DNA from: Bacteroidota bacterium
Lineage (GTDB): Bacteria; Bacteroidota; Bacteroidia; CAILMK01; JAAYUY01
Assembly (NCBI GenBank): GCA_018698135.1
Contig: JABINZ010000160.1
Location: forward strand, 1 to 58,771
Length of the DNA stretch: 58,771 nucleotides
Direction: 5' to 3'
The notes beneath the pieces were generated by a model. The model did no database searches. It saw nothing but the letters and a program-made list of their open reading frames with translations, and was not told the DNA's origin. A program made the translations under genes and the position numbers. Each line of letters starts with the position of its first letter. Within the stretch, counting starts at the first letter, position 1. Shown one piece after another: positions 18,401 through 41,944 of the stretch.

Positions 18401-18429
18401 TTGATCATCCGTTAATATACCAGTTGTTA
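18401..18429 (+). repeat. left terminal inverted repeat of the IS
   Basis: Begins TTGATCATCCGT and pairs with 19364-19392. It contains the last codon and stop of the transposase. Confidence 0.8.
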
Positions 18430-19437: not shown

Positions 19438-21222
19438 ATGTTAGCAAACAGAAATAGAAAAAAAAGCGCCTATACATTTACCTTCATTTATATCCTTTGC
19501 TTATCTGGAATCATCGTCATAACAGCAATAATTGCACACCGAATAGATTCTAAATTCAAAGAAAGTATAGTCGAACAATGGTCAACTCAATTGAGTTCCA
19601 TAACACAAATTTCTTCTTTGAACATTGAAAGTTTCTTCTCAAAATTTGGTGATAATCTATTAACTATTTCAGTCAATCCATTGATTCAGGAAAAGGCCCT
19701 TTCAGCAAAACATGATGTAAACGACACCTCTTTTTGTTGCATCAGAAACCTATATGAAATTCATCAAAATGATATAAACGCCATATTAATGCAGGACAAA
19801 AATGGTGAATTTATATTAGGCTATCCTGAATATTTATTTGAAAATTCTAAACATTTGAGAAGGTTGGGAAATGTATATCCATTCGACACATTTGCTCAGG
19901 GGGAAACTTATGTAAGTGATGTTATTACCAATAATCACAACCTTCAGTTTTTTGTAATTTCAGTACCTATCTTCAGAGATAATGAATATCTAGGCTTAAT
20001 TAGTTGGGTTATTTCCATTGACAAAATCACGAAAAAATACCTTGATCCTGTAACCATTGGTCAAAATGCTTATTTATGGATGATTGACAATTCGAATAGG
20101 ATTTTAGCACATCACGATTCAAATTATTTAGGTTTGAATTCATGGTATATCATGAAGGATCTTGAAATCACCCAGAAAGTTGCTGGTTATTCTACTGAAA
20201 AATCTGAAATATATTTGAAAGAGTCGAGAGCTTTTTTTGAAGAGCTTCATGCAAATAATTCTGGAACTGGCAGATACATTGATTTTGCTCATAGTAATTA
20301 TTGTCTGGCTACTTATCAGAAAATACCCATATATAATAACCTTTGGACTATTATCACAAATGTCCCCTATACGCTAATCTTAGAACCGGTGAAAAAAAAC
20401 ACTTTCAAGGTTTATTTATTATCAGGTGTTGTTATCAGCATTTTAACCTTATTAATGCTCTTATTATTCCGCTTGCAACGAAGTGCACAATTATTGGCAA
20501 AAGAAACGGAATACCATATTGAATTGGCCAAGAAAGCAGAACAAATAAAGGAAGAAAGGCAAAAGAAACTGACTGCCCAAATTGATGGACAGGAAATTGA
20601 AAGAAAAAGGGTTTCCAGAGAAATTCATGATGGTTTGGGGCAATACTTATTAGCACTAAAAGTCCGACTTGAGGAATTATATATCAAAATCCCAAAAAAC
20701 TTAGCCACTCGAATCGAAGACTTACGATCGATCTTTCAAAAAACTTTAGACGAAACAAAACGTATTTCAAACAACCTATTGCCCATATCACTTGAAGAAT
20801 TGGGTTTGATAACATCCATCAAAAATCTTTGTCATGAATTCAAAATCAATTCCAACATCAAAGTTGATTTTGTATCTCACGGAATATCTGAATTAATAAG
20901 CATCAAGCAAAAAACCTATATCTATCGAATTTGCCAGGAAGCATTAAGCAACATTCAAAAACATGCTGATGCAAGTGAGGTAAATGTTCAGCTATTGGGA
21001 AATAATGAACAGCTTACCTTGATTATTCAGGACAATGGCAAAGGATTTAGTTATGACATAGGATATTATACCAAAGGAAATGGATTAAATAATATTCGAG
21101 ATAGAGCAGAAATATTGAATGGGAGTTGTGAAATTGAGAGCACAAATAAACAAGGAACAAATATTAAAATAAGAATTCCTCTAGAAAAAAAATATGCAAA
21201 AGATAACAGTTATTCTGGTTGA
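19438..21222 (+). CDS. membrane sensor histidine kinase, dCache plus NarL-type kinase
   Basis: A 594-residue sensor. A TM helix (about 14-33) and a second (about 324-345) enclose a 290-residue extracytoplasmic dCache-like domain (residues 40-320). After a coiled coil, the HisKA_3 motif ERKRVSREIHDGLGQ gives the phosphorylated His397. The HATPase part shows EALSNIQKHADASEV, DNGKGF and GNGLNNIRDRAEIL. The kinase gene overlaps the response regulator by 29 bases. The cache domain means it senses a small molecule outside the membrane. It lies 1.0 kb upstream of the first copper-type TonB receptor, so a link to that uptake locus is plausible but unproven. The IS inserted 45 bases upstream may affect its expression. 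Confidence 0.9.
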   Translation: MLANRNRKKSAYTFTFIYILCLSGIIVITAIIAHRIDSKFKESIVEQWSTQLSSITQISSLNIESFFSKFGDNLLTISVNPLIQEKALSAKHDVNDTSFCCIRNLYEIHQNDINAILMQDKNGEFILGYPEYLFENSKHLRRLGNVYPFDTFAQGETYVSDVITNNHNLQFFVISVPIFRDNEYLGLISWVISIDKITKKYLDPVTIGQNAYLWMIDNSNRILAHHDSNYLGLNSWYIMKDLEITQKVAGYSTEKSEIYLKESRAFFEELHANNSGTGRYIDFAHSNYCLATYQKIPIYNNLWTIITNVPYTLILEPVKKNTFKVYLLSGVVISILTLLMLLLFRLQRSAQLLAKETEYHIELAKKAEQIKEERQKKLTAQIDGQEIERKRVSREIHDGLGQYLLALKVRLEELYIKIPKNLATRIEDLRSIFQKTLDETKRISNNLLPISLEELGLITSIKNLCHEFKINSNIKVDFVSHGISELISIKQKTYIYRICQEALSNIQKHADASEVNVQLLGNNEQLTLIIQDNGKGFSYDIGYYTKGNGLNNIRDRAEILNGSCEIESTNKQGTNIKIRIPLEKKYAKDNSYSG

Positions 21223-21853
21223 CGATCATCCTATTTTTAGGGATGGGATCAAGTCAATGTTTGAAAATTCAGAAGAAGTAGCTATTGTGGATGAAGCCAG
21301 CAATGGAATTGAAGCAATTGATAAAACATTTAGTTTGAAACCAGATGTGCTGATAGTTGACTTGTCGATGCCGGGTATAACAGGAATTGAACTCATTGAA
21401 AGAATTAGAGGATTTAATAAGGAAACAGCCATTATTGTTCTTTCCATGCACAGCAAAGAGGATTATATATTCAAGGCCATTCGGGCTGGCGCAAATGGAT
21501 ATCTACCTAAAGAGGAAACAACAAAAGAAGAGTTATTAAAGGCAATTCATGAAGTACGAAAAGGAAATGAATACTTTAGTCATTCCGTAAGTCAAACCAT
21601 GCAAAAGCATTTCTTAAACGAGGCAAAAAACAATCAAACCGATTTGCCCGATTATGAGTCACTTTCCAAAAGAGAAAAAGAAGTGCTTAAACTAGTAATT
21701 GAAGGCTTAAGCAATACAGAAGTAGCTGCTAAACTTTTTGTTTCTTTGCGCACAGTCGAAACGCATAAAAGCAATATCCTTCAAAAGTTACAACTGAAAA
21801 ATACAGTTGAATTGGTCAAGTTTGCTTTAAAACACAATTTGCTTGAAATTTGA
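21194..21853 (+). CDS. NarL/FixJ-family response regulator
   Basis: A 219-residue regulator with a receiver domain (VDDHPIFRDG, phosphoacceptor Asp56 in LIVDLSMPG, Lys in GYLPKEE) and a C-terminal LuxR-type helix-turn-helix (LSKREKEVLKLVIEGLSNTE, then RTVETHKSNI). It is translationally coupled to the kinase. It is the last gene before the 394-bp regulatory region of the first TonB receptor. That region has a GTGNNNCAC palindrome repeated before the second receptor; a LuxR-type dimer could bind such a site, which is inference. Confidence 0.93.
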   Translation: MQKITVILVDDHPIFRDGIKSMFENSEEVAIVDEASNGIEAIDKTFSLKPDVLIVDLSMPGITGIELIERIRGFNKETAIIVLSMHSKEDYIFKAIRAGANGYLPKEETTKEELLKAIHEVRKGNEYFSHSVSQTMQKHFLNEAKNNQTDLPDYESLSKREKEVLKLVIEGLSNTEVAAKLFVSLRTVETHKSNILQKLQLKNTVELVKFALKHNLLEI

Positions 21854-22247
21854 GTTTTAAGCTGATTTTTTATAATAGTAAACTGAAAAAATCCTCTTTT
21901 AGTGATTCACGTAGTGTTATTTAGAATTTCATCTAAATTAAAAAACAAATTAAGGCCATTATGCATTTTGATTAATTCATATTATAATTTGTTTTAGTCA
22001 GCACATCATCTCTCTTTACCTCCATTTAGTCTTTTTGACACTTATTCCATTATTTGCCTAACACATTGAATCATCCATTCTATTATGATGCGCTTAATCT
22101 AAAAAACCACTCTTTTGTGCATTTCCCTTCAAAATAATTCATTTATTTTTTTACACTACTTTCAATATGATGACATCTGGTTACATTTGATTCGAAAAAT
22201 AGACTAAAGGACTATAAACGAAATTTATCTGTACGAAATAAAATAAC
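21854..22247 (+). promoter_or_regulatory. regulatory region of receptor 1 (block A)
   Basis: This 394-base gap has no gene. It holds three elements shared with block B before receptor 2: (1) TTTTAGTGATTCACGTAG at 21897-21914, with the GTG-N3-CAC palindrome; (2) a 24-base stretch at 22131-22154 (starts AAAATAATTC, ends TTTTTTTAC) identical to 25336-25359; (3) a perfect -7 box TACATTTG at 22182-22189 inside a conserved TGGTTAC-TTTGAT context, followed by AGACTAAAG at 22201. No -33 TTTG is evident; the 24-base element, 27 bases upstream of the -7 box, may be an activator site. Confidence 0.6.
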
Positions 22248-24611
22248 ATGAAATCTAAAATTTACTCAGTTGCCAGCTTTTTAGTGATTATTTGCATCCT
22301 TATTCCTAAGCTTAGTTTGGCACAACAATCGGTTGATATAAAAGGAGTTGTTATTAGCTCAGAGTCTCAAAAAGCAATTGGAGGTGCCAATGTAATTTTG
22401 TCGCCAAGCTATTTTGGTTCTGCAACAAATTCTAAAGGAGAATTTAAAATTTCCAATGTCAATCCAGGTACGTATAAAATAACTGCTTCCTATTTAGGAT
22501 ATAAGCATTTTGAAAAAACCATAACAGTTTCAGGAAAAGATCTTGTTGTAAATTTTTCATTGTACAAAGGACCCATTATATTATCCCCAACTGAAATCGA
22601 AATTAAAGGTGCTGCTACCATGCCTCATGCAAAAATGAAACTTACACAGTCGATGATAGAGGAAGAAGCAACCCGTGATATTGGTGATTACTTACGATTA
22701 TTTCCTGGGATATCTGGTATTCGAAAAGGTGGTTCCAACATCGATCCAGTGGTTAGGGGATTCAAATTTGACCAATTGAATATTCACATGGATGGAGGTA
22801 TTCGTATTGAAGGAGGTTGCCCAAACCGTATGGATCCAACTTCAGCCCATGTCGAAATGGAAGACATCGATAATATCGAAATTATTAAAGGCCCTTATGT
22901 GTTAAGATACGGCCCCACATTTGGAGGAATTGTAAATCTGGTAACAAAAAAGCCAAGCCCTTCTTTAACAGGTGACTTTGAAATTCATGCCCGAGCGGTG
23001 AAGGGTTTTGAAACCAATTGGAGAGGAGATAAAGAACATTTGCAAATTTTTGGCGGTACCGATAAAGTATATTTCTCATTAGCAGGAGCACAACTGCGCT
23101 ATGGTGACTATTTAGATGGTAAAGGCGATGCAGTCAGCTCTGGTTTTCACAAGTGGAATTACAATGGTAAAATCGCTGTTCGACCCTGGAAGAATCATGA
23201 GATCATGTTCTCATATATTGAATCACATGGACGAGATGTGAAATTTGCAGCCTTACCCATGGACGAACGTTCAGATAATACACAAGTAATGGCTTTGGAT
23301 TATACGGCTAAAAAGATTTCTGACAATATTGAAGATATTAAAATAAAACTCTACAGAAGCTATGTTGACCATATTATGGACAATAAGGAAAAGTCATTTG
23401 GCGACACCGTTGCTGCAGTTTCAGCAATTGATCCTACAGTGATTGGTGGCCGGGCTGAAATAGGATTAAACCTTGGAGAAGGTCATATGTATATTGGAAC
23501 CGATTTTGAAACTGTTGAGAAGTTTGGAACCAGAACAAAAAATTTCTATGCTATGCCTCCAACTCCAGCAGGTTCTTTTCTGATTTATGTAGAACCATTG
23601 TGGGCAAATGCTAATTTAATAAACAATGGTGTATTTGTAGAGTATAGTAATAAATGGGATAGTTGGGAGTTCATATCTTCCATGCGTTTCGATTATAATC
23701 AGGCCAGTTCTGACACTATCCGAATATTCTCTCCAAATGGTAAAATCCTTAAACTGGAAAATGGGGAAACAAATAGTGAGTATGCCAATTTCTCTGCTAG
23801 TGTAGGAATTAATAAACATCTCAACGAAAACCTTTCCGTAGGTTTAGGAATTGGTCGTGGTGTACGCAGTCCAAATATGTTAGAGCGATACATTATTTTA
23901 TTACCTGTTGGCTTTGATACATACGATTATATTGGCAATCCATCTTTAAAACCTGAAGCCAATCATCAAGCTGACTTAAATATTAAATATGAAAATGATG
24001 ACATTGGTGGGTTTTATGTGAATGGATTTTACTCCTATGTAATTGACTATATCTCTGCACATGAAATTACAACCTATAATGGAAATCCAATTTTAGCAAA
24101 TACCAATGGTGTACTTGGCGTAAAAGAGTTTTACAATGTCGAAGATCCGGTTTCTTTTACCGGTTTTGAATTCTCTTATGCCACACCAAGCAAATTCAAA
24201 TTAGGAGGCCAGGTTATAGCATCCTACACACAAGGAACATTTGGAAGCAATTACCTGAAACTGGATAAAATATTAAATGATCCCTTAAACGAAATCCCTC
24301 CATTTGAAGCCAATGTTTTGGTTAAATACAAAATGTTCAATAATAAGCTAATTCCAAAAGCCGGACTAAGAATAGTTGCTGCACAAAACCGAGTATCCGA
24401 ATCCTTTATAGAATCTGCAACGCCTGCTTTTACTTTACTTGATTTTGGTTTAGTATACAAGTACTCAAAATTTCTTACAATCACAGGTGGGATTGACAAT
24501 ATTTTAGATACTGAATACTTTGAACATTTGAACCGCAGAGCACTTGGAAGCTCTCAAAGTATTTATGAACCTGGTCGTGTACTTTTTGTTAACATGATCG
24601 TAAACTTATAA
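22248..24611 (+). CDS. TonB-dependent receptor, OprC/NosA-like copper type, copy 1
   Basis: A 787-residue outer membrane receptor. Signal peptide 1-25 (LSLAQ); a carboxypeptidase-regulatory-like domain at about 28-105 (VDIKGVVISS, GSATNSKGEFKI, YLGYKHFEK); plug at about 130-235 (PVVRGFKFDQLNIHMDGG, IEIIKGPYVLRYGP); then beta-barrel. In the plug, EGGCPNRMDP gives Cys191-x3-Met195, and in the barrel DHIMD gives His375-x-Met377. OprC of Pseudomonas binds copper with Cys143, Met147, His323 and Met325; the Cys-to-His spacing is 180 there and 184 here. I therefore predict ionic or chelated copper as ligand. It is followed after 21 bases by a small lipoprotein gene and then a terminator. Confidence 0.88.
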   Translation: MKSKIYSVASFLVIICILIPKLSLAQQSVDIKGVVISSESQKAIGGANVILSPSYFGSATNSKGEFKISNVNPGTYKITASYLGYKHFEKTITVSGKDLVVNFSLYKGPIILSPTEIEIKGAATMPHAKMKLTQSMIEEEATRDIGDYLRLFPGISGIRKGGSNIDPVVRGFKFDQLNIHMDGGIRIEGGCPNRMDPTSAHVEMEDIDNIEIIKGPYVLRYGPTFGGIVNLVTKKPSPSLTGDFEIHARAVKGFETNWRGDKEHLQIFGGTDKVYFSLAGAQLRYGDYLDGKGDAVSSGFHKWNYNGKIAVRPWKNHEIMFSYIESHGRDVKFAALPMDERSDNTQVMALDYTAKKISDNIEDIKIKLYRSYVDHIMDNKEKSFGDTVAAVSAIDPTVIGGRAEIGLNLGEGHMYIGTDFETVEKFGTRTKNFYAMPPTPAGSFLIYVEPLWANANLINNGVFVEYSNKWDSWEFISSMRFDYNQASSDTIRIFSPNGKILKLENGETNSEYANFSASVGINKHLNENLSVGLGIGRGVRSPNMLERYIILLPVGFDTYDYIGNPSLKPEANHQADLNIKYENDDIGGFYVNGFYSYVIDYISAHEITTYNGNPILANTNGVLGVKEFYNVEDPVSFTGFEFSYATPSKFKLGGQVIASYTQGTFGSNYLKLDKILNDPLNEIPPFEANVLVKYKMFNNKLIPKAGLRIVAAQNRVSESFIESATPAFTLLDFGLVYKYSKFLTITGGIDNILDTEYFEHLNRRALGSSQSIYEPGRVLFVNMIVNL

Positions 24612-24632
24612 ATTCGCTTTAAATCAATTGTT

Positions 24633-25037
24633 ATGAAAAAGATAAAACATATAACCTCCATTTTAATAGTGATAACATTTTTTGCCGGAATTAGCTCTTG
24701 TGAAAAAGATGTAAATCCTCGAACTGTTGATTATGCTATCAAAGGGCTTTCATCAGAATACAAAATTTCTTATACGATAAATGGTGAAAATTTCAATAAA
24801 GTAATTCAGGGTAAAGACACCGTGATTTCATTTCTATCAAACAAAGGAGAAGTATTGTATTTTGATATAAAATATAAAGATGATGTACACAAAATGTCAA
24901 ATTTTGCAGCACTGATTCGTGTTAATAAAACAATTTTTAGAGAAGCATATGCTTACGACATGAAATGGGCAGATTCTGCTACAGTTAATATTCCATACCC
25001 CTTTGAAATAATACTACGGGGAACTGTCCCTTTCTAA
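24633..25037 (+). CDS. small lipoprotein paired with receptor 1
   Basis: A 134-residue lipoprotein (lipobox GISSC, Cys23). The residues after Cys (E-K-D) resemble the Bacteroidota surface-export signal. The mature part of about 110 residues looks all-beta (YAIKGLSSEYKISYTING, GEVLYFDIKYKDD) and ends exactly in LRGTVPF. Its paralogue at 27811-28212 sits in the same place behind receptor 2 and ends in SGTVPF. I do not recognise the family. By position it could be a receptor accessory that binds the ligand or caps the receptor. Confidence 0.75.
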   Translation: MKKIKHITSILIVITFFAGISSCEKDVNPRTVDYAIKGLSSEYKISYTINGENFNKVIQGKDTVISFLSNKGEVLYFDIKYKDDVHKMSNFAALIRVNKTIFREAYAYDMKWADSATVNIPYPFEIILRGTVPF

Positions 25038-25053
25038 TTTGAAAACGGTGAGC

Positions 25054-25081
25054 AACCGGCTAGCAATAGCCGGTTTTTTTT
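25054..25081 (+). terminator. strong rho-independent terminator after lipoprotein 1
   Basis: AACCGGCTA (25054-25062), loop GCAA, TAGCCGGTT (25067-25075), then a T run to 25081. A 9-bp perfect stem. It separates the first receptor/lipoprotein unit from the second. Confidence 0.93.
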
Positions 25082-25449
25082 AAAAAAAGACCAGATAATT
25101 ATAATAATAAATAGAAATAATCAGTTTTTAGTGTAACACGTAGGCGCTTTAAGAAATACTGCTAAATAATGTGACAATAGCACCTATTGCACAAACTTCC
25201 AACACAAAATAAAAAGAACCTAAGAGCCCTTAAGCACATATTTATGGGATAATTTCTTTTCTAAACTCCCCACAAATAAATTCTCATATTAGCTTTTTTT
25301 TCGTTTTAAAAAAGTTATTTTGGCTACAACTCTCGAAAATAATTCATTTATTTTTTTACCCACTCAAAATAGCAAAACTCATGGTTACTTTTGATAACTA
25401 AAACAGACTAAAGAACATTACAACCGATTAGTGTCTTTAAAATATTGAA
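25082..25449 (+). promoter_or_regulatory. regulatory region of receptor 2 (block B)
   Basis: No gene is seen here. It is a diverged copy of block A: TTTTAGTGTAACACGTAG at 25126-25143 (GTG-N3-CAC), a related CTAAAT stretch at 25162-25167, the identical 24-base element at 25336-25359, the -7 box TACTTTTG at 25386-25393 in the context TGGTTAC-TTTGAT, and AGACTAAAG from 25405. The 24-base element ends 26 bases before the -7 box, nearly as in block A. Confidence 0.6.
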
Positions 25450-27801
25450 ATGATTAAGTCAAAAAAAATAGTCCAAATTGTTATATTCTTCATAGCCTCC
25501 TTATTGTTTGCAAACGCTCTTTATGCTCAGAAACAAGCCAGCATTACAGGAGTTGTAATTGATGGTGATTCAAAGAAAATACTTGAAAGAGCAAATGTTC
25601 AATTAAATCCAACAACAATTGGAGGCGTTACAAATGAGCATGGTGAATTTCATTTAAAAAATATTACTCCTGGAAACTACACTATACAAGTAACATTTAT
25701 GGGCTATAACCCAATTTCCAAAAAGATAACTTTATCTGCAGGAGAAACCAAAGTCATTAGCTTTTCAATGGCAACAACATATTTTGAACTTAGTGAAGTT
25801 ATTATTAAGGATTGGGCACAAAAGCATGTTCCTTATGTAAAGTCTGATCTGTCAAAAATTGAAATAGAAGCACTGGGAACCCGCGACTTAGGAGATTATC
25901 TTCGTTCAGTTCCTAACGTTTCAGCCATCCGAAAAGGTGGTACTCAACTTGACCCGGTTGTGAGAGGATTCAAATACGATCAACTTAATGTACGAATTGA
26001 TGGTTTTTTACGAATTGAAGGAGGATGCCCTAATCGTATGGATCCAAATGTTTCTCATATTGAAGTGGATGATATTGAAAAAATTGAAATTATAAAAGGC
26101 CCATATGCATTAAAGTATGGACCTGCTTTTGGAGGTTTTGTAAATATTATCACAAGCAAACCTACACCATTTGAAAGCAGCAAATTTGAAGTTCATGCCC
26201 GAGGAATTAAAGGATATGAGAGCAGCTGGAATGGCACAAAAGACAGAATAAATGTTAAATTAGGCAACAATAAGGTCTACTTTAACCTTTCAGGCAACAA
26301 TCAAAAATATGGTGACTACAGAGATGGAAATGGATTAACAGTTCCATCTAAATTCAGAAAATATTCTTTTACAGCTGAAGCCGGATATAAACCTAAAAAA
26401 AATCATGAGTTTCTATATTCATATGTTACATCTCATGGTAGAGATGTAAAGTTCGCTAGCCTGCCCATGGATGAGCGCTTGGATGACACCTGGCTTATGT
26501 CGGCTCAGTATATTATTATGAAGCCAACTGAAAACATCAAGAAAATACAATTCAGGGTATTTGAATCCAATGTGCACCACGTAATGGATACACGAGAGAA
26601 ATCTATTTCTGACACAGTGCTGGCAGTTTCAACAGTAGATGCTATTGTAAAAGGTGTTTCTGCTGGAATGGGATTAAAAGCTGGAGATGGAGGAACATTG
26701 ATAGTTGGTGCTGGATTTGAGCATACTTTTAAAGATGGCAAACGGGTTAAAACCATGTATAAAATGCCTGCTGAGCCATTTATTCCAACAAAAATTGAGA
26801 ATTTGATGAATGCTATCATCACCAACTTTGGAACAGTAGCTGAATTTGAAAAAAAGATGGAAACAATAACCTTGGTTGCAGCAGTCAGATTTGATTTGAA
26901 TTCTGCAACTTCAAATCCGATTATTGTTTACAAAGCTGGATCATCTGCAATACAGGATACTATCTCAGAAGTAAAATCACAGTTTGCTAACGTTAGCTTC
27001 AGCTTTGGATTAAACAAATACCTAACAGAACATTTAACAGCTGGTATCGCTATCGGCAGAGGTGTTCGAAGCCCTAATATGTTGGAACGATACGTAAATT
27101 TACTGCCAATTGGCTACGACAACTATGATTATTTAGGAGACCCGGCCATTAAACCTGAAGCTAATCATCAAGCCGATCTCACTTTTAAATATGAAACAGA
27201 TGAAATTGGAAGAATTACTTTGAATGGATTTTATTCAGTGGTTACAAATTACATTTCGGCTCGTCAGATTCCTCCGGCAGAATACCTCCCCAACTCGACA
27301 GGTGTATTAGGTGTAAAAGAATTTTACAATGCAGACTTGGTATTTTTCAGAGGAATTGAACTCACATACTCAACTCCATCTACCTATAAATTAGGAGGTT
27401 CTGTTATCGCATCCTACACACACGCTACCATGTCATCTGCTTGGGACAAACTTCTTGAAATTAAGAATGATGCGTTATACGAAATTCCTCCATTTGAAAG
27501 TACAATTTCAATTCACTACAAAATGCTTTCTAACCGACTGGTTCCAAGAGCTTCCATTAGGTTCGTTGCAGCTCAAAACTATGTTTCAGAAGCGTTTCAT
27601 GAACAGCCAACTGCTGGTTTTGTTGTGGGAAATGCAGGAATAACCTATAAGCACAGTGTAATTGTAAGTATTTCAGGTGGTGTCAACAATATTCTCGACA
27701 CCCCTTATTTCGAACATCTCAGCAGAAGAATGATCGGTTCAAATAGAGATTTCTTCGAACCCGGAAGAATCTTCTACATTAACTTGATTGTAAATATTTA
27801 A
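25450..27801 (+). CDS. TonB-dependent receptor, OprC/NosA-like copper type, copy 2
   Basis: A 783-residue paralogue of the receptor at 22248. Signal peptide 1-26 (ALYAQ), carboxypeptidase-regulatory-like domain (SITGVVIDGD, GGVTNEHGEFHL, FMGYNPISK), plug (PVVRGFKYDQLNVRIDG, IEIIKGPYALKYGP) and barrel. The copper-type residues are kept: EGGCPNRMDP gives Cys193 and Met197, and HHVMD gives His377 and Met379, again 184 residues apart. Barrel regions outside these motifs differ, so the two may prefer different chelates or concentrations. It heads a seven-gene run to 34692 with no strong terminator inside. Confidence 0.88.
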   Translation: MIKSKKIVQIVIFFIASLLFANALYAQKQASITGVVIDGDSKKILERANVQLNPTTIGGVTNEHGEFHLKNITPGNYTIQVTFMGYNPISKKITLSAGETKVISFSMATTYFELSEVIIKDWAQKHVPYVKSDLSKIEIEALGTRDLGDYLRSVPNVSAIRKGGTQLDPVVRGFKYDQLNVRIDGFLRIEGGCPNRMDPNVSHIEVDDIEKIEIIKGPYALKYGPAFGGFVNIITSKPTPFESSKFEVHARGIKGYESSWNGTKDRINVKLGNNKVYFNLSGNNQKYGDYRDGNGLTVPSKFRKYSFTAEAGYKPKKNHEFLYSYVTSHGRDVKFASLPMDERLDDTWLMSAQYIIMKPTENIKKIQFRVFESNVHHVMDTREKSISDTVLAVSTVDAIVKGVSAGMGLKAGDGGTLIVGAGFEHTFKDGKRVKTMYKMPAEPFIPTKIENLMNAIITNFGTVAEFEKKMETITLVAAVRFDLNSATSNPIIVYKAGSSAIQDTISEVKSQFANVSFSFGLNKYLTEHLTAGIAIGRGVRSPNMLERYVNLLPIGYDNYDYLGDPAIKPEANHQADLTFKYETDEIGRITLNGFYSVVTNYISARQIPPAEYLPNSTGVLGVKEFYNADLVFFRGIELTYSTPSTYKLGGSVIASYTHATMSSAWDKLLEIKNDALYEIPPFESTISIHYKMLSNRLVPRASIRFVAAQNYVSEAFHEQPTAGFVVGNAGITYKHSVIVSISGGVNNILDTPYFEHLSRRMIGSNRDFFEPGRIFYINLIVNI

Positions 27802-27810
27802 TTGAAAATC

Positions 27811-28212
27811 ATGAAAAATTATTATAAAGTTATTGGACTCATATTGATTCTGTTAAGCGGAATGCTATTTCTTTCCTGTGAAGAAAACAAAGAAGACGTT
27901 TCAATAACATATGCAGTAAAAGGCTTAAGCTCTGATTTTAATGTCACTTTCCTCAATGAAGATGAAGAAACTATTCGGATAGACTCCGTATTGACAGACG
28001 ATTGGAATTATTCTTTCATTGGAAATAAAGGAGACATCGTATATATCTATGTTCGCTACCATGAGGATGCAAGCTTATCCAGCAACTTTTACGTAGGCAT
28101 AGAAGTAAATGGTAAAGCCTATAAATATTCAAACTCATTTGATAAAGACTGGGGAACCGCAGGTGGAAAATACAGGTATCAAATCATTCGCTCAGGAACT
28201 GTCCCTTTTTAA
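27811..28212 (+). CDS. small lipoprotein paired with receptor 2
   Basis: A 133-residue lipoprotein (lipobox LFLSC, Cys23) starting at ATG 27811; the longer frame would need a TTG at 27802. The mature protein starts with an acidic run (CEENKED), then YAVKGLSSDFNVTFL, GDIVYIYVRYHED and ends SGTVPF. The shared YA-KGLSS-, the GD/GE-V-Y segment and the GTVPF ending show it is a paralogue of the lipoprotein at 24633. No known family recognised. It is 9 bases after receptor 2. Confidence 0.75.
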   Translation: MKNYYKVIGLILILLSGMLFLSCEENKEDVSITYAVKGLSSDFNVTFLNEDEETIRIDSVLTDDWNYSFIGNKGDIVYIYVRYHEDASLSSNFYVGIEVNGKAYKYSNSFDKDWGTAGGKYRYQIIRSGTVPF

Positions 28213-28243
28213 AATTTTCAAAAACAATTAATCTTTAGTTCAT

Positions 28244-30583
28244 ATGAAAAACTTACGCATACTGATAATCGTACTAGCTGTATCAGTACTATCAACCGTC
28301 AACCTTTTTGCACAACATAGCCTTAAAGGGAAAGTAATTGACAATGAAACAAAAGAAGGTTTAATAGGAGCCAGCATTCAAATTGCTGGAACAGAAATTG
28401 GAACAGCTACAAATGTTCAAAGCGAATTTGAGGTAAAATCTAAAGTTGCTTTTGATCTAATCATTGTTTCATACACAGGATATGAAACAAAGAAAGTTGC
28501 TGTTTCAGGTGATTTTATAATTATTGCTCTGGAACCAACAGCCATTGAGCTCGATCAAACCATTGTTACAGCAAGCAGAGATCAACAGGACAGAAAAGAT
28601 GCATCTGTATCGATGAATAAAATTCAGAAAGCTGAGCTCAAAGAAATAAATGCCAATTTTCATAGTCAGGTGTTAAGTCGGGTTGCCAGTATTCATATTG
28701 CAGATTTTGGGAATGAGCAAATGTCGATCAGTATACGTGAACCACTTTCATTTTCCAGAAGCCATGTGGTCATACTTGAGGATGGAATTCCTATTGGTCC
28801 TACAGCACTTACTTCAGGTGGCGATATTAACAATATCAACCTTCATGGTATAGGGGCTGTTGAAGTTTTGCGAGGTCCAAATTCATCACTTTATGGAAGT
28901 GAAGCAATTGGAGGAACAATAAACTACCTTTTATCTAGTCCAACATTAGTTCCAACTGCAGGTTTTACACTTATTGGAAATGATTTAGGTTATAAGAAAG
29001 TTGGATTTAATGCTTCAAACACTTTTAAAAAGTTTGGAATTGCAGCATCTGGCTATTGGGCTCAGCGCAGAAATGGATACAGACAACATTCCGATATGGA
29101 TAAACTCACTTTTACACTGAAAGCAGAATATTTGTTTTCTTACAAAACAAAACTAACAGCAGCTTTAACCTATTTTGATTTCACAACCGATTTTGCAGGA
29201 AGTCTGGATAGTGCAGAGTTTTATACTGATGACTCGTATAACCAACATACGTTTGCTTATGTCAACAGCAAAGGATTAAGATCTTATATAAGATTAGATC
29301 ATTATTGGAACGAAAACAGCAAAACATTTTTCACAGCTTTTGTGCGAAATTTCAACGAAGAAGAAGTCCCAACTTACAGAATCCGAGCAATTGCTTATTA
29401 TCCTACAACCAAATATGCAGGTGAATTTGTTGACGAACAATACAATAGTGTAGGTTTAATTGCTCAGCACAAACAAAAACTTAAATTTCTGAACTCATCT
29501 TTAATTGGAGGTATTAGTTCTAACTACACCCCTGAATTGTACTACAGCGAAGTAATTGATGTCACCGAAGAAAATGGCGTTTATACCGATTACAAAATGA
29601 CAGGGCCGGAAATTCAGGATTTCAATGCAGTTTTGCTCAGTTCAGCAGCCTACCTGCATTATGAAATTACTCCTATTGAAAAAATGAAAGTACTGGCTGC
29701 ACTGCGCTACGACCGATTGGATTATATCTACGACAATCATTTAGATCCAAATGATATATCAGGTGCACGCGATACGACTGATGCATTCCAGCATTTAAGT
29801 CCTAAAATTGGTTTGACGTATGATTTAGGCAAAAACCGTGGTTTCTATGCAAACTATAGTATTGGTTTTGCTCCTCCATCATTTAATCAATTATACAAAA
29901 CAACAAAGGTTCCTGTTCTGAAACCTTCAACCTATTACAATTATGAATTTGGTGGCTGGTATAGTTTTGCCAAAAAGAAAGGATCGGTTGATATTAGCTT
30001 GTATAGAGCTGATGGTAAAAACGAAATCGTAGAAGTGTATGAAGGAGGTGCATCTACTTTAAAAAGTGTAGGTGAAACAAGACATAGCGGAGTAGAATAT
30101 ACATTTAAGTACAAATTCCTTAAGGATTTTAACTTCCGATTTTCTGGCAGCAATTCTATACACGAATACATTTCATTTGACGAGGGTGCCCATGATTACA
30201 GCGGTAATGAAATGAGCATTGCTCCTCATTTTATCGCAAACTCATCATTAACCTATAAACCGCTAAAAAACAAACTAAAGGGATTATGGATAAGTGCTGA
30301 ATGGCAATATATTAGTGAATATTACATGAATGAAGACAACTCAGAAAAATATGGTGGTTATAATTTTGGCAATGCTCGTTTAGGTTATACATTTAAAAGT
30401 GCAAGTATATGGTTCAACGTATTGAATGTTACCGATGAATTATTTGCAGCAAGAGCAAGCAAATCCTATTATGGGAACCCAACTAACCCCATTATTGTCA
30501 GGAGCTATTCCCCTGGAATTCACAGAACATTAGAACTGGGTATATCCTATAACTTCACTGGAAAGAAAAAACAAACAAAATAA
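28244..30583 (+). CDS. TonB-dependent receptor, third type, unknown ligand
   Basis: A 779-residue receptor: signal peptide 1-24 (VNLFAQ), carboxypeptidase-regulatory-like domain (LKGKVIDNETKEGLIGASIQ), TonB-box-like DQTIVTASRD, plug (SISIREPLSFSRSHVVILEDG, GAVEVLRGPNSSLYGSEAIGG) and barrel. It lacks the CxxxM pair of the two copper-type receptors, and I see no cysteine in it, so it is not a third copy. The sequence looks closer to general siderophore or cobalamin receptors. It follows the lipoprotein by 31 bases and precedes the DUF4198-like gene by 10. Confidence 0.87.
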   Translation: MKNLRILIIVLAVSVLSTVNLFAQHSLKGKVIDNETKEGLIGASIQIAGTEIGTATNVQSEFEVKSKVAFDLIIVSYTGYETKKVAVSGDFIIIALEPTAIELDQTIVTASRDQQDRKDASVSMNKIQKAELKEINANFHSQVLSRVASIHIADFGNEQMSISIREPLSFSRSHVVILEDGIPIGPTALTSGGDINNINLHGIGAVEVLRGPNSSLYGSEAIGGTINYLLSSPTLVPTAGFTLIGNDLGYKKVGFNASNTFKKFGIAASGYWAQRRNGYRQHSDMDKLTFTLKAEYLFSYKTKLTAALTYFDFTTDFAGSLDSAEFYTDDSYNQHTFAYVNSKGLRSYIRLDHYWNENSKTFFTAFVRNFNEEEVPTYRIRAIAYYPTTKYAGEFVDEQYNSVGLIAQHKQKLKFLNSSLIGGISSNYTPELYYSEVIDVTEENGVYTDYKMTGPEIQDFNAVLLSSAAYLHYEITPIEKMKVLAALRYDRLDYIYDNHLDPNDISGARDTTDAFQHLSPKIGLTYDLGKNRGFYANYSIGFAPPSFNQLYKTTKVPVLKPSTYYNYEFGGWYSFAKKKGSVDISLYRADGKNEIVEVYEGGASTLKSVGETRHSGVEYTFKYKFLKDFNFRFSGSNSIHEYISFDEGAHDYSGNEMSIAPHFIANSSLTYKPLKNKLKGLWISAEWQYISEYYMNEDNSEKYGGYNFGNARLGYTFKSASIWFNVLNVTDELFAARASKSYYGNPTNPIIVRSYSPGIHRTLELGISYNFTGKKKQTK

Positions 30584-30593
30584 GCCTACATAC

Positions 30594-31562
30594 ATGTATA
30601 CAAAACTGAAAACTGTCAGTATTATCCTTTTGTTATTCATGAGTTCATGCTTTTGTTTTGCACAAGAAAACATTTGGTTATCAGGTGATCCACCACCTCA
30701 GGCAAAGCGCGTGGTTAGGCCTTCAGGTATGCAACATTATATGGCTTTTCGAAACAACAGAGGTCAGGAAAAACTAATTCTTTGGCCACGTAATGGAGAC
30801 ACACCAAAAGGTTCATCTTACATTGACTCTTTTAATACTGAACCGGAAATATTTGTTGTTTCTCCAGCTGGCGATTTGCTTGAATACAATTTATCAACTT
30901 CAGATAAAGGCTTTGCACTAACCTATGCTTTTGATTTGGAAGGCTACCATAATATTTATTTCCTTTGGAAAGAAGTGCGAGACGAAACCTTGTTTGTTCA
31001 TGTTGCAAAAGCTGAACGATTAAACCATAAATGTCAAAATGGACATCGAAGTATCTCAGGTAAAATCAAGGTAAAATCTTTTCCCGAAATTGTTCCGTTT
31101 GAAATAATCAGGAACAGGTTTAAACCTACTGAAGATTTTCATTTAATTCTTGCATCTGGAAATGTTGCTAGTTTTAGTGCTTTGGAAAACAATGAAGCAA
31201 TTGAAGATGTTGAATTCATTTTTGTCACAGAAAAAGGCTGGTCAAAAACAGTTAATGCAAATGAAAAGGGAATAGCCGAATTTCAGATACCTGAAGACTA
31301 TTTCTCCAAAATGAAAGAACTAAACAAGGATGAAACATATCACTTTTTATTAACAGCAAAATATTCAAACAGTACAAGTGGCGAATACCAAGGAAAAGCC
31401 TATAGCAAAATTTCTTATGTATGTACCTATGCAGGCGATTATGAGCCAAGCCCATCCTTATACAAATCATCCTTCTGGCCTATCATCATCATCCTATTTT
31501 CAACACTGGCAATAGGCTCATTTATTTTTTATAGCAGAAGCAAACGAAGACGATTTTATTAA
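30594..31562 (+). CDS. exported DUF4198-like protein with C-terminal membrane anchor
   Basis: A 322-residue protein with a signal peptide (1-23, FCFAQ), two beta-rich parts and a TM helix at about 292-313 followed by a basic tail (SRSKRRRFY). Residues about 165-285 (IVPFEIIRNRF, AIEDVEFIFVTEKGW, NEKGIAEFQIPED) resemble DUF4198/NikM-like proteins, which accompany metal uptake systems. A cluster H145-K-C147-x3-H151 (in NHKCQNGH) could bind a metal. So it is likely a periplasmic, inner-membrane-tethered component. Family assignment is by pattern only. Confidence 0.6.
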   Translation: MYTKLKTVSIILLLFMSSCFCFAQENIWLSGDPPPQAKRVVRPSGMQHYMAFRNNRGQEKLILWPRNGDTPKGSSYIDSFNTEPEIFVVSPAGDLLEYNLSTSDKGFALTYAFDLEGYHNIYFLWKEVRDETLFVHVAKAERLNHKCQNGHRSISGKIKVKSFPEIVPFEIIRNRFKPTEDFHLILASGNVASFSALENNEAIEDVEFIFVTEKGWSKTVNANEKGIAEFQIPEDYFSKMKELNKDETYHFLLTAKYSNSTSGEYQGKAYSKISYVCTYAGDYEPSPSLYKSSFWPIIIILFSTLAIGSFIFYSRSKRRRFY

Positions 31563-31566
31563 AACG

Positions 31567-32607
31567 ATGCAGATGAATAAGATCAAACATAAAATCAATC
31601 TTGCAAATATCTCACGATTCAGAACCATTATTCAAATTCTGAGTTTCATACTCATTATGTATGGTGGCTATGCAGCAATTACGATCAGCGAGCGCATTCC
31701 TACTTTTGCCTGCCCTTATGCAACAGGAAGCGCAGGAACCTGCTATCTTATTGCCATGCAACATGGACTTCACATTACATGGGCTGATTTTGCCAGCTAT
31801 AGGGGATTTGGTTTTTACACAGGACTTTTGATTTTCCTTGCCTGGTTTATTGTTTTCAATAAGTCGTGGTGTGGATTTGTTTGTCCACTTGGAACCATAC
31901 AGGACTGGATTACAAAATTGCGCAAGCTGCTGGGCATTGCTTTCACAAAATACGATTCTAAATTGTTTAAAAAACTGAGGTTTATCAAATTCATTGTATT
32001 GGGTTTGCTCATTTTGATTCCCCTTGGAATGAGTAACTCACTTTTTGGATTACCTCACTTTTCTCATGACTTGGGAGCTCCTTTCTGCCAGATATGTCCT
32101 GGCAGAACGGTTCTCCCTTTATTTACAGGTAGCACATCTGAATTATTCATTGATTTTGCAAACAATACAACCATATTCATGTCTACTTTGGGTATCATAA
32201 TTTTTGTCACTTTCATTATTGGATCATTCTTTAAAAAGAGATTCTTTTGCTTTTTCTGCCCTATGAGTGCTTTGCAATTTTTGTTTAGCAGAATCGGATT
32301 ATTGAGGATGACAAAAGTGGGTAGCGTATGTACAAAATGTGGGAACTGTTCACGGGTTTGTGATATTGGAATTGAACAAATTGCAGAAGACATCACCAGT
32401 AAATTCATTGTAAAAGACGATTGTATGATGTGCTTCAAATGTGTAGAAGCCTGCCCAGAGAATGATTGTTTGAAAGTATCCTTTGCAGGTATTTCTATTT
32501 TGAACTCAACAGATGAAGGATTTTTTAAACGCTATTCAGACAGTAAAACCTTCAAGATTGATACAGATAGCAAGGAATTAATTGACCAAAAGAAGAAAAA
32601 TGACTAA
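31567..32607 (+). CDS. NapH/CcoG-like membrane polyferredoxin
   Basis: A 346-residue inner membrane iron-sulfur protein. Hydrophobic spans lie at about 20-40, 82-98, 138-156 and 202-221. Cys pairs next to membrane spans are W-C102-GFV-C106-P, C174-QI-C177-P and C228-FF-C231-P, as in NapH, NosR and CcoG. Two [4Fe-4S] motifs follow near the C-terminus (Cys255/258/261/265 and Cys286/289/292/296). Known relatives move electrons across or along the membrane; CcoG reduces Cu(II). Here it would feed electrons either to a metal on the periplasmic side or to the activase/double-cubane pair encoded next. It overlaps the next gene by 8 bases. Confidence 0.85.
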   Translation: MQMNKIKHKINLANISRFRTIIQILSFILIMYGGYAAITISERIPTFACPYATGSAGTCYLIAMQHGLHITWADFASYRGFGFYTGLLIFLAWFIVFNKSWCGFVCPLGTIQDWITKLRKLLGIAFTKYDSKLFKKLRFIKFIVLGLLILIPLGMSNSLFGLPHFSHDLGAPFCQICPGRTVLPLFTGSTSELFIDFANNTTIFMSTLGIIIFVTFIIGSFFKKRFFCFFCPMSALQFLFSRIGLLRMTKVGSVCTKCGNCSRVCDIGIEQIAEDITSKFIVKDDCMMCFKCVEACPENDCLKVSFAGISILNSTDEGFFKRYSDSKTFKIDTDSKELIDQKKKND

Positions 32608-33898
32608 AAATAAATCCCAAAATACAATTTCGCGCTACGAAAGGATGAAGAAAACCTCCACCGTTCATTTGGCGATGGAATATGCTAAAAGCTTGAAAGA
32701 AGTTGTCGATGATTTCCCTTACAATCCCGAAAGCATGTATTTCTTTTATGACAGAATGAATGCGTTTTTGGATGCTGAAAACACGGATTTAGCGAATAAG
32801 AAAGTCATTGCTACTTCCTGTATTTTTGTGCCTGAAGAAATTATTTATGCTTTGGGAGCAATACCGCTACGCATTTGCAATGGGGCATATTCCTATGATC
32901 AGATAGGTGCTGAATTTATGCCTGCCAAAGCATGTCCTTTAGTCAAATCAACAATTGGACAACTTCACGTCAATAATTTCCCAATGGGTGCCAAACCACA
33001 ACTCATTGTTAACCCAACTTCTTGCGATTATAAAAAGAAAATGCCTGAAGTAGAAACAGCTTCTGAAATTGAGTTTTATACGCTTGAACTACCCGCTACA
33101 AAAGAAACAGAAGCATCCAAAAGTTATTGGATACAATCAATTGATGCTTTTATAAAAAAACTGGAAAAAACAACTGGAAATAAACTAACACGTAAAAAGC
33201 TCAAAGAAGCCATTAATTTAGTTAGTCAGGCTCAACAGCAATATCGCAGATTGCACACCATAAGAAAGCAGGGCCCTGTTATTTGGGGAAAAGATGTTAT
33301 TCTACTATCCAATAGTTACTTCTTCGAAGACATTAGAAAATGGACTGAACAACTTGAAAAACTTAATGATGAACTAGAAGTACGAGTTGAAAACAAGCAA
33401 TATGTGGTGAAGGAAAATGCACCAAAAATTTTGCTTACCGGTTCACCCTCTATTTTTCCTAATTTGAAAACACCCGTATTGATTGAACAAATGGGCGGAC
33501 TCATTGTAGCCGATGAATTTTGTTCCTCCAACCGTTTGCTTTATGATACAGTGGCTGTGGATGAATGGTTTTTATACGACATGATTCCGGCATTAGCCGA
33601 TCGTTACCTCAAACCTTGTACTTGTCCGAATTTAACTCCAAACACTGATAGAGACCGAAAACTCATCAATACAGCAAAAGAATTTAGCGCTGATGGAGTC
33701 ATCTATCAGGCTTTTGCCGGATGTCAGTTATATGAAATGGAATCGCTGCGTATTGCTAAAAAGTTAGAACAAGAAGGCATTCCCATGCTCTACATCGAAA
33801 CAGATTATAATCCTGATGATTTAGGTCAGTTATCAACCCGAATAGAAGCTTTTCTCGAATCCTTAAAAGCAAAGAAATCTAAAACTCAAATAGCATGA
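32600..33898 (+). CDS. HgdB/BcrC-family double-cubane-cluster-type protein
   Basis: A 432-residue 2-hydroxyacyl-CoA dehydratase D-component family protein. ATG 32600 is chosen because its ATGACTAA overlaps the previous stop; the longer frame begins with TTG at 32582. Cysteines at 74, 112, 142, 308, 340, 342 and 375 sit in family contexts (TSCIFVPEEI, KACPLVKS, TSCDYKK, CTCPNL, GCQLYEMES). No second dehydratase subunit is present, as in two-gene double-cubane-cluster protein systems (E. coli YjiM/YjiL). Those use an ATP-driven reductase to reach very low potential and reduce small molecules. The substrate here is unknown; the context suggests a metal complex or its ligand. Confidence 0.8.
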   Translation: MTKNKSQNTISRYERMKKTSTVHLAMEYAKSLKEVVDDFPYNPESMYFFYDRMNAFLDAENTDLANKKVIATSCIFVPEEIIYALGAIPLRICNGAYSYDQIGAEFMPAKACPLVKSTIGQLHVNNFPMGAKPQLIVNPTSCDYKKKMPEVETASEIEFYTLELPATKETEASKSYWIQSIDAFIKKLEKTTGNKLTRKKLKEAINLVSQAQQQYRRLHTIRKQGPVIWGKDVILLSNSYFFEDIRKWTEQLEKLNDELEVRVENKQYVVKENAPKILLTGSPSIFPNLKTPVLIEQMGGLIVADEFCSSNRLLYDTVAVDEWFLYDMIPALADRYLKPCTCPNLTPNTDRDRKLINTAKEFSADGVIYQAFAGCQLYEMESLRIAKKLEQEGIPMLYIETDYNPDDLGQLSTRIEAFLESLKAKKSKTQIA

Positions 33899-34692
33899 AC
33901 ATCTATTGTGGCATCGACATAGGCTCCTCTTCCATAAAAATAGCTTTGCTTAACGAAGAGGTGAAACTCATTGCCCATTCCATCTCTCCCACCGGTAGTA
34001 GTTTCCGTAAGAATGCTACGATTGCATTGGACAACCTTTTAAGTAAGCATCAAATCAGTCAGACTCAAATCAAATATGTTGTTTCAACTGGCTATGGACG
34101 CAAGTTATTTCCAACTGCAGATGAAAACATCAGTGAAATTACTGCCAATGCCACTGGTAGTAAGCATTCATTTAAAAATCAATCGGTTTTAAGGAGCATT
34201 ATTAATATTGGAGGACAGGATTCTAAAGTCATTGTTTTGGATGCAAATGGTTATGTTAAAAACTTTGTAATGAACGATAAATGTGCAGCAGGAACCGGAC
34301 GCTTTTTGGAAATGGCTGCACGTAATCTGGAAGTAGATATTGATGATTTAGGAGAATTGCATTTTGCCAACAAAAAACCACCACTGGCTGTAAACTCAAC
34401 CTGTGCTGTATTTGCTGAATCCGAAATTATATCATTATTAGCAGCAGGACATGGGAAAGAAGAAATTGCCTCAGGCATACATTACTCCATTGCCAGACGT
34501 ATTGCCCGATTAGCATCACGAGCAGGAATAGATGATGCTGTTTTGTTTGATGGAGGAACTGCCCTCAATAAAGGTATGCATGCCGCTTTAGAAGATGAAC
34601 TTATGCGCGATATTTTCATACCTGAGCATCCTCAAATTACCACGGCAATTGGTGCAGCACTATTGGCCAAGCAAGCAGTTGAAAACAAATAA
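33895..34692 (+). CDS. BadF/HgdC-type ATPase, activator of the preceding protein
   Basis: A 265-residue ASKHA-fold ATPase. Phosphate loop GIDIGSSSIKIALL (residues 6-19), INIGGQDSK, NDKCAAGTGRFLE (Cys130), NSTCAVFAESE (Cys170) and DGGTALNKG. Cys130 and Cys170 correspond to Cys127 and Cys166 of Acidaminococcus HgdC, which hold one [4Fe-4S] cluster between two subunits. It hydrolyses ATP to push one electron onto its partner, here the HgdB-like protein whose stop it overlaps (ATGA). It closes the operon; palindromic repeats follow. Confidence 0.9.
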   Translation: MNIYCGIDIGSSSIKIALLNEEVKLIAHSISPTGSSFRKNATIALDNLLSKHQISQTQIKYVVSTGYGRKLFPTADENISEITANATGSKHSFKNQSVLRSIINIGGQDSKVIVLDANGYVKNFVMNDKCAAGTGRFLEMAARNLEVDIDDLGELHFANKKPPLAVNSTCAVFAESEIISLLAAGHGKEEIASGIHYSIARRIARLASRAGIDDAVLFDGGTALNKGMHAALEDELMRDIFIPEHPQITTAIGAALLAKQAVENK

Positions 34693-35031: not shown

Positions 35032-35922
35032 ATGAAAAACATGGAAATTCCAAAATTTCACGAAACATTTAACCCTATCCTTGAGATACTGTGTGACGGA
35101 AAAACTTATCATTCAAGGGAATTAATTAATCAAGTAGTTGCAAAATATTATTCTCATCTGCCCAAAGAGTTATTAGAGCAAGAGACAAAAAGTGGCGACA
35201 TACTATTATCTAATAGAATAGCATGGGGGAAATCATATTTGAAAAAAGGCGGTTATATTGAATTTCCTAAGCGAGGTATGGTTAAGATAACTGATAAGGG
35301 TCTTAATTCATTATCTAAAAAATTAGAATTAGAAGAGATTGAAGGTGATGAAAATTTTCTTGACTTTTATACAGAAGAAAAGAATAAAAAGAATTTTAAA
35401 AATAGCAAGATAGAAAATTCCACACCTCAAGATTTAATTGATTCAGGATTTTCACAAATTGAAGCAGGAGTCAAATCTGAATTCTTAGAAAAACTGAAAG
35501 TTATTGATCCTTTTTATTTTGAGAAAGTAATTTTGATATTACTTAAAAAAATGGGATATGGTGATTTTATTGAAACCTCGAAATCCGGTGATGGAGGGAT
35601 AGATGGTATTATCAATGAGGATAAACTCGGACTCGATAAAATTTATATTCAAGCAAAAAGATATGGCGAAAATAAAGTTAGAGAGAAGGATATTAGGAAT
35701 TTTATTGGAGCCATGAGTGGGGATACAAGCAAAGGGATTTTTGTAACAACATCTATATTTCATGAAGGAGCTATTAAAAAAGCATATGATGCACACCATA
35801 CTATCATTTTAATTGATGGAAATAAATTAGTTGATTTACTACATGAATTCAATGTTGGCGTTCAAATAAAATCTATTTATGAATTAAAGGAGTTGGATTT
35901 AGATTTCTTTGATGGAGAATAA
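35032..35922 (+). CDS. Mrr-type restriction endonuclease-like protein
   Basis: A 296-residue protein with an Mrr_N winged-helix domain (residues about 8-95, LEILCDGKTYHSRELINQV) and a PD-(D/E)xK nuclease domain (about 160-280). The catalytic block reads SGDGGIDGIINED, then IYIQAKRYG with the QxK motif, then FIGAMSGDTSKGIFVTTS. Mrr enzymes cut modified DNA. It stands alone with no methyltransferase near it, as expected for a type IV-like enzyme. ATGs at 35032 and 35041 are both possible starts. Confidence 0.87.
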   Translation: MKNMEIPKFHETFNPILEILCDGKTYHSRELINQVVAKYYSHLPKELLEQETKSGDILLSNRIAWGKSYLKKGGYIEFPKRGMVKITDKGLNSLSKKLELEEIEGDENFLDFYTEEKNKKNFKNSKIENSTPQDLIDSGFSQIEAGVKSEFLEKLKVIDPFYFEKVILILLKKMGYGDFIETSKSGDGGIDGIINEDKLGLDKIYIQAKRYGENKVREKDIRNFIGAMSGDTSKGIFVTTSIFHEGAIKKAYDAHHTIILIDGNKLVDLLHEFNVGVQIKSIYELKELDLDFFDGE

Positions 35923-39816: not shown

Positions 39817-40627
39817 CCTTTTTTGTTTTTGATGCGGTAATGGTTACGCTGAAAATACCTGTATTTCCAGTTCTAAACTCATTAATTTCATCTTCAGTCA
39901 TGTAATGAACCAAAATTTCAACTGGCACCATCACCCGCTTAATATTTTTAATTTCAGGCTGATCAAATCCCGATTTCTCTATGATATCAATATAGGATTC
40001 AAGTTGAATAGCTCCAGCCACACATCCTACATATAGTTCTGCATCATCACGAATTGAATCTGGCAATTCCCCTTTAATAACCATATCTGAAATAGAGAAT
40101 ACTCCACCATACTTCAAAACACGATAAATTTCTTTAAAGGCTTTTTCTTTATCAGGGACAAGGTTTAATACACAATTGCTAATTACAATATCTATTTCTT
40201 GATCATTAATGGGTATATTTTCGATATCACCTTTAATGAATTCAATATTTTGATAGCCTTTTTGCTGTTTATTTTCTTGTGCTTTATCAACCATTTCATC
40301 GGTAAAATCAAGCCCAATAACTTTACCAGCATCACCCGTTAAATGATGTGCAAGAAAACAATCATTTCCCGCTCCTGAACCTAAATCAAGTACAACATCA
40401 CCTTTTTTAATCCCAATAAATTCTGTCGGAATACCACAACCAATGTGTAAATCTGCTTTATCAAAATAACCGGGTAAACCTTCATAACACTGACTAAAGG
40501 AGGTAATGGTATCGTCCCGATGAATCTCTGAACTACAGCAACAACAGCTTGATTCTCGCCATTTCCCAAGAGCTACTTCTCCATATTTCTCTTTTACCAA
40601 CCGCTTTTTAAGATCTTTTTCCTTCAT
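39806..40627 (-). CDS. arsM: arsenite S-adenosylmethionine methyltransferase
   Basis: A 273-residue class I methyltransferase that methylates As(III). SAM motif [11 protein letters not shown], As-binding cysteines in [20 protein letters not shown] and YVGCVAGAI, and a Cys cluster near the N-terminus (SSCCCCSS). It turns inorganic arsenite into methyl forms, which the permease at 41945 may export. It starts 9 bases after a 35-codon frame and overlaps acr3. Confidence 0.93.
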
Positions 40628-40636
40628 CTGTTTTAA

Positions 40637-41379: not shown

Positions 41380-41434
41380 AATTATCGAATTATTTTATTC
41401 CTTCAGTATTCAGTTAGCATAATTTTTCTGTTCA

Positions 41435-41920: not shown

Positions 41921-41944
41921 TGAGTTCGTAGGTCAACCTATATT

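Follow-up and report, generated by a model that had tools for sequence, protein, structure and literature searches.

What role an ATP-dependent double-cubane reductase might play in an operon with TonB-dependent receptors is the question raised by nine genes (22248-34692) of a Bacteroidota genome. These genes lie in a stretch of 58,771 nucleotides, here called the window, which is contig C160 (JABINZ010000160.1) of a 4.2-Mb draft assembly with 287 contigs that is 97% complete. All nine genes were open and oriented in the same (+) direction, with coordinates agreeing with those of a preliminary description, in which a system importing a copper complex and reducing the metal or its ligand had been proposed. 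The core at 28244-34692, encoding a TonB-dependent receptor (TBDR, P0005), a secreted DUF4198-like protein (P0006), a polyferredoxin (P0007), a double-cubane cluster protein (DCCP, P0008) and an activase (P0009), is a real five-gene unit and not a chance neighbourhood. Its role is very probably metal acquisition, and copper is probably its main metal. The gene set had been called unfamiliar, which was borne out: the five-gene module is apparently undescribed, and no paper joining a DCCP with TonB, or an activase with copper, was found in the open-access literature.

Among 84,980 species-level genomes searched, 36 related loci were found in seven phyla, namely Bacteroidota, Calditrichota, Nitrospirota, Desulfobacterota, Pseudomonadota, Spirochaetota and Campylobacterota, the Pseudomonadota carriers including metagenome-assembled genomes (MAGs) labelled as methanotroph families. 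All five core genes were present in 23 loci, that is, wherever the contig was long enough, with the sole exception of locus L016, where two other genes, one for a secreted CobN-like protein and one for a PepSY_TM protein rich in Met, occupied the receptor position. Among 347 Campylobacterota genomes, the matches to P0008 were bimodal, with 24 places at E ≤ 1e-116 and 20 at about 1e-62. TBDR, P0006-like and polyferredoxin genes accompanied the DCCP gene in 22/22 examined loci of the first group, whereas a polyferredoxin or P0006 was found in 0/18 loci of the second (Fisher p = 9e-12). Furthermore, with the Campylobacterota DCCPs as the comparison, the module DCCP clade came out as monophyletic (100/100), and the distances of four module proteins correlated (r = 0.75-0.97). 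The preliminary description had held that a split of homologous loci between 28212 and 31567 would speak against a joint system; no such split was seen inside the core, and a break at 28212/28244 was common. Chance adjacency or an assembly artefact might be suspected in a 287-contig draft, many of the other carriers being MAGs, but its probability is negligible, as the same gene order recurs in all seven phyla and in single-contig Campylobacterota assemblies of 1.8-2.8 Mb. Chance adjacency in particular is ruled out by this conservation and by the difference between the two groups of Campylobacterota loci.

The module was found neither in 59 relatives of the window genome nor in 295 other sampled Bacteroidota. 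Sampling of 149 other genomes around G072 gave a single match, and that locus (L106) also has the module. As its occurrence is rare and patchy, horizontal spread is probable. Second module copies without an adjacent activase (L075 and L078) were observed in two genomes (G348 and G382) that also hold a complete module, and in three Campylobacterota loci (L069, L071 and L074) the receptor/DUF4198-like/polyferredoxin set was doubled ahead of a single DCCP/activase pair.

Outside nitrogenase, large iron-sulfur clusters are few, and the one in DCCPs is among them. The identities assigned earlier to the polyferredoxin and to the HgdB-like/activase pair proved right, P0008 being a DCCP and P0009 a canonical activase that passes TIGR00241. 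P0008 passed the NCBIfam double-cubane equivalog NF040772 (353.5 bits, cut-off 350), and the activase gene adjoins it, as expected of NF040772-type DCCPs. The cluster ligands of BzdN have been published (PMC11971306), and residues C80, C118, C148, C314, C348 and C381 of P0008, which align with C36, C73, C100, C263, C293 and C327 of BzdN, were accordingly assigned as predicted [8Fe-9S] ligands; all six were invariant across 51 homologues. Judged from its sequence, P0008 is a DCCP with predicted ATP-dependent reductase activity. The six cluster cysteines and the activase partner are shared with the DCCP/activase pair of Carboxydothermus (PDB 6ENO and 7YYL; E = 1e-67 over 360 aa). Nevertheless, P0008 belongs to a distinct clade, has lost four other cysteines conserved in Campylobacterota DCCPs and 6ENO, and, unlike the Carboxydothermus pair, is tied to a receptor, a DUF4198-like protein and a polyferredoxin. 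The biological function of DCCPs has been described as unknown, their in vitro substrates are small unsaturated or N-N compounds, and an electron relay is the presumed role of the BzdN double cubane (PMC11971306).

The polyferredoxin P0007 has two Fer4_5 motifs and a dicluster ferredoxin domain in common with NapH, NosR and CcoG. Its two PF12801 (Fer4_5) stretches occur as in NapH/MauN, and its match to the NapH/MauN model TIGR02163 (63.7 bits) lay below the curated cut-off of 213. It differs from these proteins in four additional invariant cysteines (C49, C59, C174 and C177) and in H66, which are predicted, from hydropathy and the known NapH topology, to lie in periplasmic loops; all five residues are missing from the genuine NapH in L037. 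P0006 itself had no Pfam match, the gathering score of PF10670 (DUF4198; 34 bits) not being reached, while its homologues, tested singly, gave weak PF10670 matches of 21-28 bits. In Foldseek, its AlphaFold model (pLDDT 86.5) matched Zcp (E = 2e-9) and a DUF4198 protein (E = 2e-6), the former with structures binding Zn, Cu or Co and the latter binding Ni. The DUF4198-like label of the preliminary description fits the fold, predicted to be a metal-binding one of the DUF4198/Zcp type, and the homologues' weak matches, but is no Pfam assignment of P0006. A motif HxCxxGH (H145, C147, G150 and H151) and H183 were kept in 19 sequences from six phyla, the invariance holding outside Campylobacterota. 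Of the long P0006-like forms in Campylobacterota, 24/24 carry a second Fer4_5 membrane part as a fusion, and 6/24 also a fused NosL domain, which is a copper chaperone.

Across the loci the reductase part does not vary, whereas the receptor slot of the core was occupied by at least five receptor classes. No conserved metal-ligand motif was found in P0005, which is siderophore/PqqU-like; the copper type named for receptors in the preliminary description does not extend to the core slot. The two receptors further upstream, P0001 and P0003, are mutually paralogous, and their top NCBIfam match was the TonB-copper model TIGR01778 (243.8 and 212.3 bits); as these scores are below the curated cut-off (472 bits), they were classed as OprC-like and not as OprC. 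The best PDB match of P0003 was OprC (E = 5e-36). Both halves of the CxxxM-HxM copper site, as defined for OprC (PMC8610252), are complete in P0001 and P0003. This is their likeness to the OprC/NosA copper receptors, from which they differ as a Bacteroidota type with a CarboxypepD_reg N-terminus and as an optional part of the locus. Copper-type receptors, regarded in the preliminary description as part of the system, are thus present with a complete site, but as optional neighbours of a conserved unit that starts at 28244. CPNRM OprC-like receptors were such neighbours in L023, L024, L026, L029, L036 and L037, CTDKM-variant receptors, whose family match is the same, in L005, L008 and L013, and the majority of Bacteroidota loci with adequate flanks had a copper-type receptor. 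The small lipoproteins P0002 and P0004 matched no known family, and homologues were not found in the compared module loci. Beside the module, receptors of the P0005 class were paired with a BNR-repeat protein (CxCC and GCPH motifs) in L005 (13300-16869), L006 (1882-5516) and L021 (9740-13146), a partner that the window does not have. A small Flavobacteria protein of no known family, with the motif CENRDKPYLECNGxCYL, occurred repeatedly upstream of receptors (L005, 4741-5118; L008, 7431-7871; L026, 1765-2157).

The copper link is supported, not proven. Of the Campylobacterota genomes, 20/22 with the module encode OprC-like receptors, against 148/325 of the others (p = 2.6e-5), in a comparison that, like those for nosZ, ignores the relatedness of genomes. 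The nosZ gene was found in 27/36 module carriers, with 8/10 carriers versus 99/295 others in Bacteroidota (p = 0.004) and 12/22 versus 97/325 in Campylobacterota (p = 0.03). Genes of the nosF/L/Y type adjoin L026, L035 and L037. The window genome lacks nosZ (PF18764) and has two heme-copper oxidase genes on a single contig. Two neighbouring nosZ-like genes, one a strong match (about 800-900 aa) and one a weak match (about 630-770 aa), were observed in several Bacteroidota carriers (G060:C873, G064:C73, G065:C85, G084:C46, and G094:C151 and C170).

Our tentative reading is that the operon encodes a system by which metal, most likely copper, is acquired through ATP-powered reduction in anoxic habitats poor in metals. 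TBDRs would import copper ions (OprC-like) and a metal chelate (core receptor) into the periplasm, and the membrane-anchored DUF4198-fold protein may bind the metal or metal complex. The cytoplasmic activase would spend ATP to generate very low-potential electrons in the DCCP. Conducted across the inner membrane by the polyferredoxin, these electrons would reach its four-cysteine site on the periplasmic side, and the metal complex or its ligand would be reduced there; the freed metal could then enter cuproenzyme assembly. What TonB receptors import is delivered to the periplasm. For a DCCP in the cytoplasm to meet these substrates, a further transporter would be needed, because no inner-membrane permease or importer is encoded by the window operon. 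This absence, the extra cysteines predicted to be periplasmic and a periplasmic metal-binding partner favour reduction in the periplasm, to which we give an even chance; the presumed relay role of the BzdN double cubane and the PepSY/DUF4198 loci discussed below serve as precedents. Cu(II) is easily reduced and does not need ATP-driven low-potential electrons, so the very low potential points to a very stable complex, or to a ligand that itself needs reduction. The idea of copper-complex import followed by reduction thus holds as regards metal acquisition, with copper best supported, but reduction of the metal alone appears too simple an account, a tightly bound complex or the ligand in it being a likelier target than bare Cu(II). 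A more specific version, an ATP-driven electron pump in which the DCCP/activase pair charges the polyferredoxin and copper is stripped in the periplasm from very stable complexes delivered through interchangeable TonB receptors, is advanced with greater reserve; it would amount to a new kind of machinery for nutrient uptake.

Several observations weigh against the reductive copper-acquisition reading. The reported activity of DCCPs concerns small molecules in vitro, with no membrane-protein partner, and the AlphaFold model of P0007 was poor (pLDDT 66; nothing was found with it in Foldseek), so that the periplasmic four-cysteine site is a sequence-level prediction. The core receptor is not of the copper type, the DUF4198 protein that has been characterised shows a preference for Ni rather than Cu, and the nosZ enrichment in carriers is modest. 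Moreover, nosZ, heme-copper oxidase (COX1) and an OprC-like receptor were all absent from three Desulfobacterota carriers (G069, G070 and G075), and copper may therefore not be universal to the module. Electrons might also flow the opposite way, with the polyferredoxin drawing them from the quinone pool or a ferredoxin and feeding the activase, and the DCCP reducing an imported ligand, such as a copper chelator, in the cytoplasm. Such a flow agrees with known activase-to-DCCP biochemistry and with the in vitro reduction of small unsaturated or N-N substrates (PMC11971306), but we consider it somewhat unlikely, as a ligand transporter for the inner membrane is missing from the window operon and most loci and the four invariant cysteines predicted to be periplasmic would be left unexplained. 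The module may instead serve iron, or different metals in different hosts, by reductive release from siderophore-like chelates, the copper genes being accidental neighbours. The siderophore-like core receptors with their several classes, the Desulfobacterota carriers without copper markers and the occurrence of DUF4198 in iron and nickel loci would fit this explanation; the NosL fusion, the CxxxM-HxM receptors in the same operon and the OprC-like enrichment make it unlikely. Maturation or reactivation of periplasmic cuproenzymes (e.g. N2O reductase), with no metal acquisition, is suggested by the frequency of nosZ among carriers, the NosL fusion and the nearby nos accessory genes. It is highly improbable, since a TBDR is a core component and nosZ is absent from the window genome, the alphaproteobacterial carriers and 10/22 Campylobacterota carriers; a nosZ-only role was likewise rejected as the sole function, nosZ missing from the window genome and from those 10 carriers.

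Under the reductive-acquisition reading, the module would work like known reductive metal-uptake loci while being built on different, ATP-driven parts. The PepSY/DUF4198/DUF2271 loci of Caulobacter (CCNA_03155-03159), implicated in periplasmic ferric reduction (PMC11870441), likewise pair a membrane redox protein with a periplasmic one of the DUF4198 type. Their electrons come from a flavin reductase/PepSY protein, whereas in the module the membrane conduit is an iron-sulfur protein and the electron source an ATP-driven double cubane; a PepSY protein is absent among the nine operon proteins of the window, and a PepSY_TM protein stands beside the module in L016, where it carries a Met/His-rich insert. 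The Bacteroidota hmu operon with the de-chelatase HmuS (PMC12583661) resembles the module in anaerobic metal release after TonB-dependent import, but the window operon has no CobN-like protein; secreted CobN-like proteins occur beside L015 and L016. These alphaproteobacterial loci encode the secreted CobN/Mg-chelatase-like protein at L015:4762-8820 and L016:702-8584. If the proposal is true, a DCCP would have a physiological role, and a new route for very low-potential electrons into the periplasm is suggested. The question of DCCP function becomes directly testable with a clade tied almost without exception to metal-uptake genes. Furthermore, it is largely open how anaerobes are supplied with copper in places where little is present or sulfide binds it, for instance for reduction of the greenhouse gas N2O, and most carriers have N2O reductase.

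The tight gene run at 25450-34692 and the paralogous pair preceding it, both claimed earlier, were confirmed, the intergenic gaps being at most 31 nt or else overlaps. No strong terminator-like stem was found in the gaps of this main operon, and its lone + strand match (34139-34163) lies inside the activase gene. The promoter-region blocks of the two operons gave a local alignment score of 71, including 24 identical bases, versus a best score of 37 in 300 shuffles; given this shared block, the operons are probably co-regulated or were duplicated along with the promoter. A two-component system just upstream is a possible regulator.

Table 1. Features of the receptor and reductase operons in the window.
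Feature	Position	Strand	Remarks
Two-component system	19438-21853	+	dCache histidine kinase and LuxR-type response regulator; just upstream
Counterpart of promoter-region block	~22131-22220		Upstream of first operon
P0001, OprC-like TBDR	22248-24611	+	CPNRM 191-195, HIM 375-377; first, separate operon
P0002, small lipoprotein	24633-25037	+	Paralogue of P0004
Terminator-like stem-loop, strong	25054-25075	+	Sole strong one in a gap; separates P0001/P0002 operon from 25450 operon
Promoter-region block, ~90 bp	25335-25427	+	Upstream of main operon
P0003, OprC-like TBDR	25450-27801	+	CPNRM 193-197, HVM 377-379; opens main operon
Junction P0003/P0004	27801/27802		0 nt
P0004, small lipoprotein	27802-28212	+	Paralogue of P0002
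Junction P0004/P0005	28212/28244		31 nt
P0005, TBDR, siderophore/PqqU-like type	28244-30583	+	Core; third of the receptor classes
Junction P0005/P0006	30583/30594		10 nt
P0006, secreted protein, C-terminal TM (transmembrane) helix anchor	30594-31562	+	Core; predicted DUF4198/Zcp-like metal-binding fold
Junction P0006/P0007	31562/31567		4 nt
P0007, polyferredoxin, four TM	31567-32607	+	Core; 16 invariant Cys
Junction P0007/P0008	32607/32582		Overlap; alternative start ATG at 32600 gives 8-nt overlap
P0008, DCCP	32582-33898	+	Core; six predicted [8Fe-9S] ligand Cys and C99 invariant
Junction P0008/P0009	33898/33895		4-nt overlap
P0009, ATP-dependent activase, BadF/HgdC family	33895-34692	+	Core; TIGR00241 246.7 bits, cut-off 125.4

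Outside Bacteroidota and Calditrichota, module loci also encode a DsbD_2 membrane protein, and ExbB/ExbD/TonB genes are frequent in other module loci. The DsbD_2 protein of the window (43272-43973) was rejected as a counterpart, being an ArsG-type arsenic protein (305 bits, cut-off 200). RND pumps are present at many Campylobacterota loci; their interpretation, together with that in L014, as Cus pumps was rejected, the two tested scoring best as general RND permeases. In the window, the region is flanked by an IS1595-type transposase (18405-19328, -) and an Mrr-type restriction endonuclease (35032-35922, +), which would suit a mobile island. Further downstream are an arsenic cluster (38731-45462, -) with ACR3, an ArsM-type methyltransferase, an ArsC-like protein, an ArsP-type permease, ArsG/ArsF-type proteins and an ArsR/SmtB regulator, and a heavy-metal RND efflux set of the CusA/CzcA family (45644-51126, +; TIGR00914, 1174 bits) that includes outer-membrane and membrane-fusion partners.

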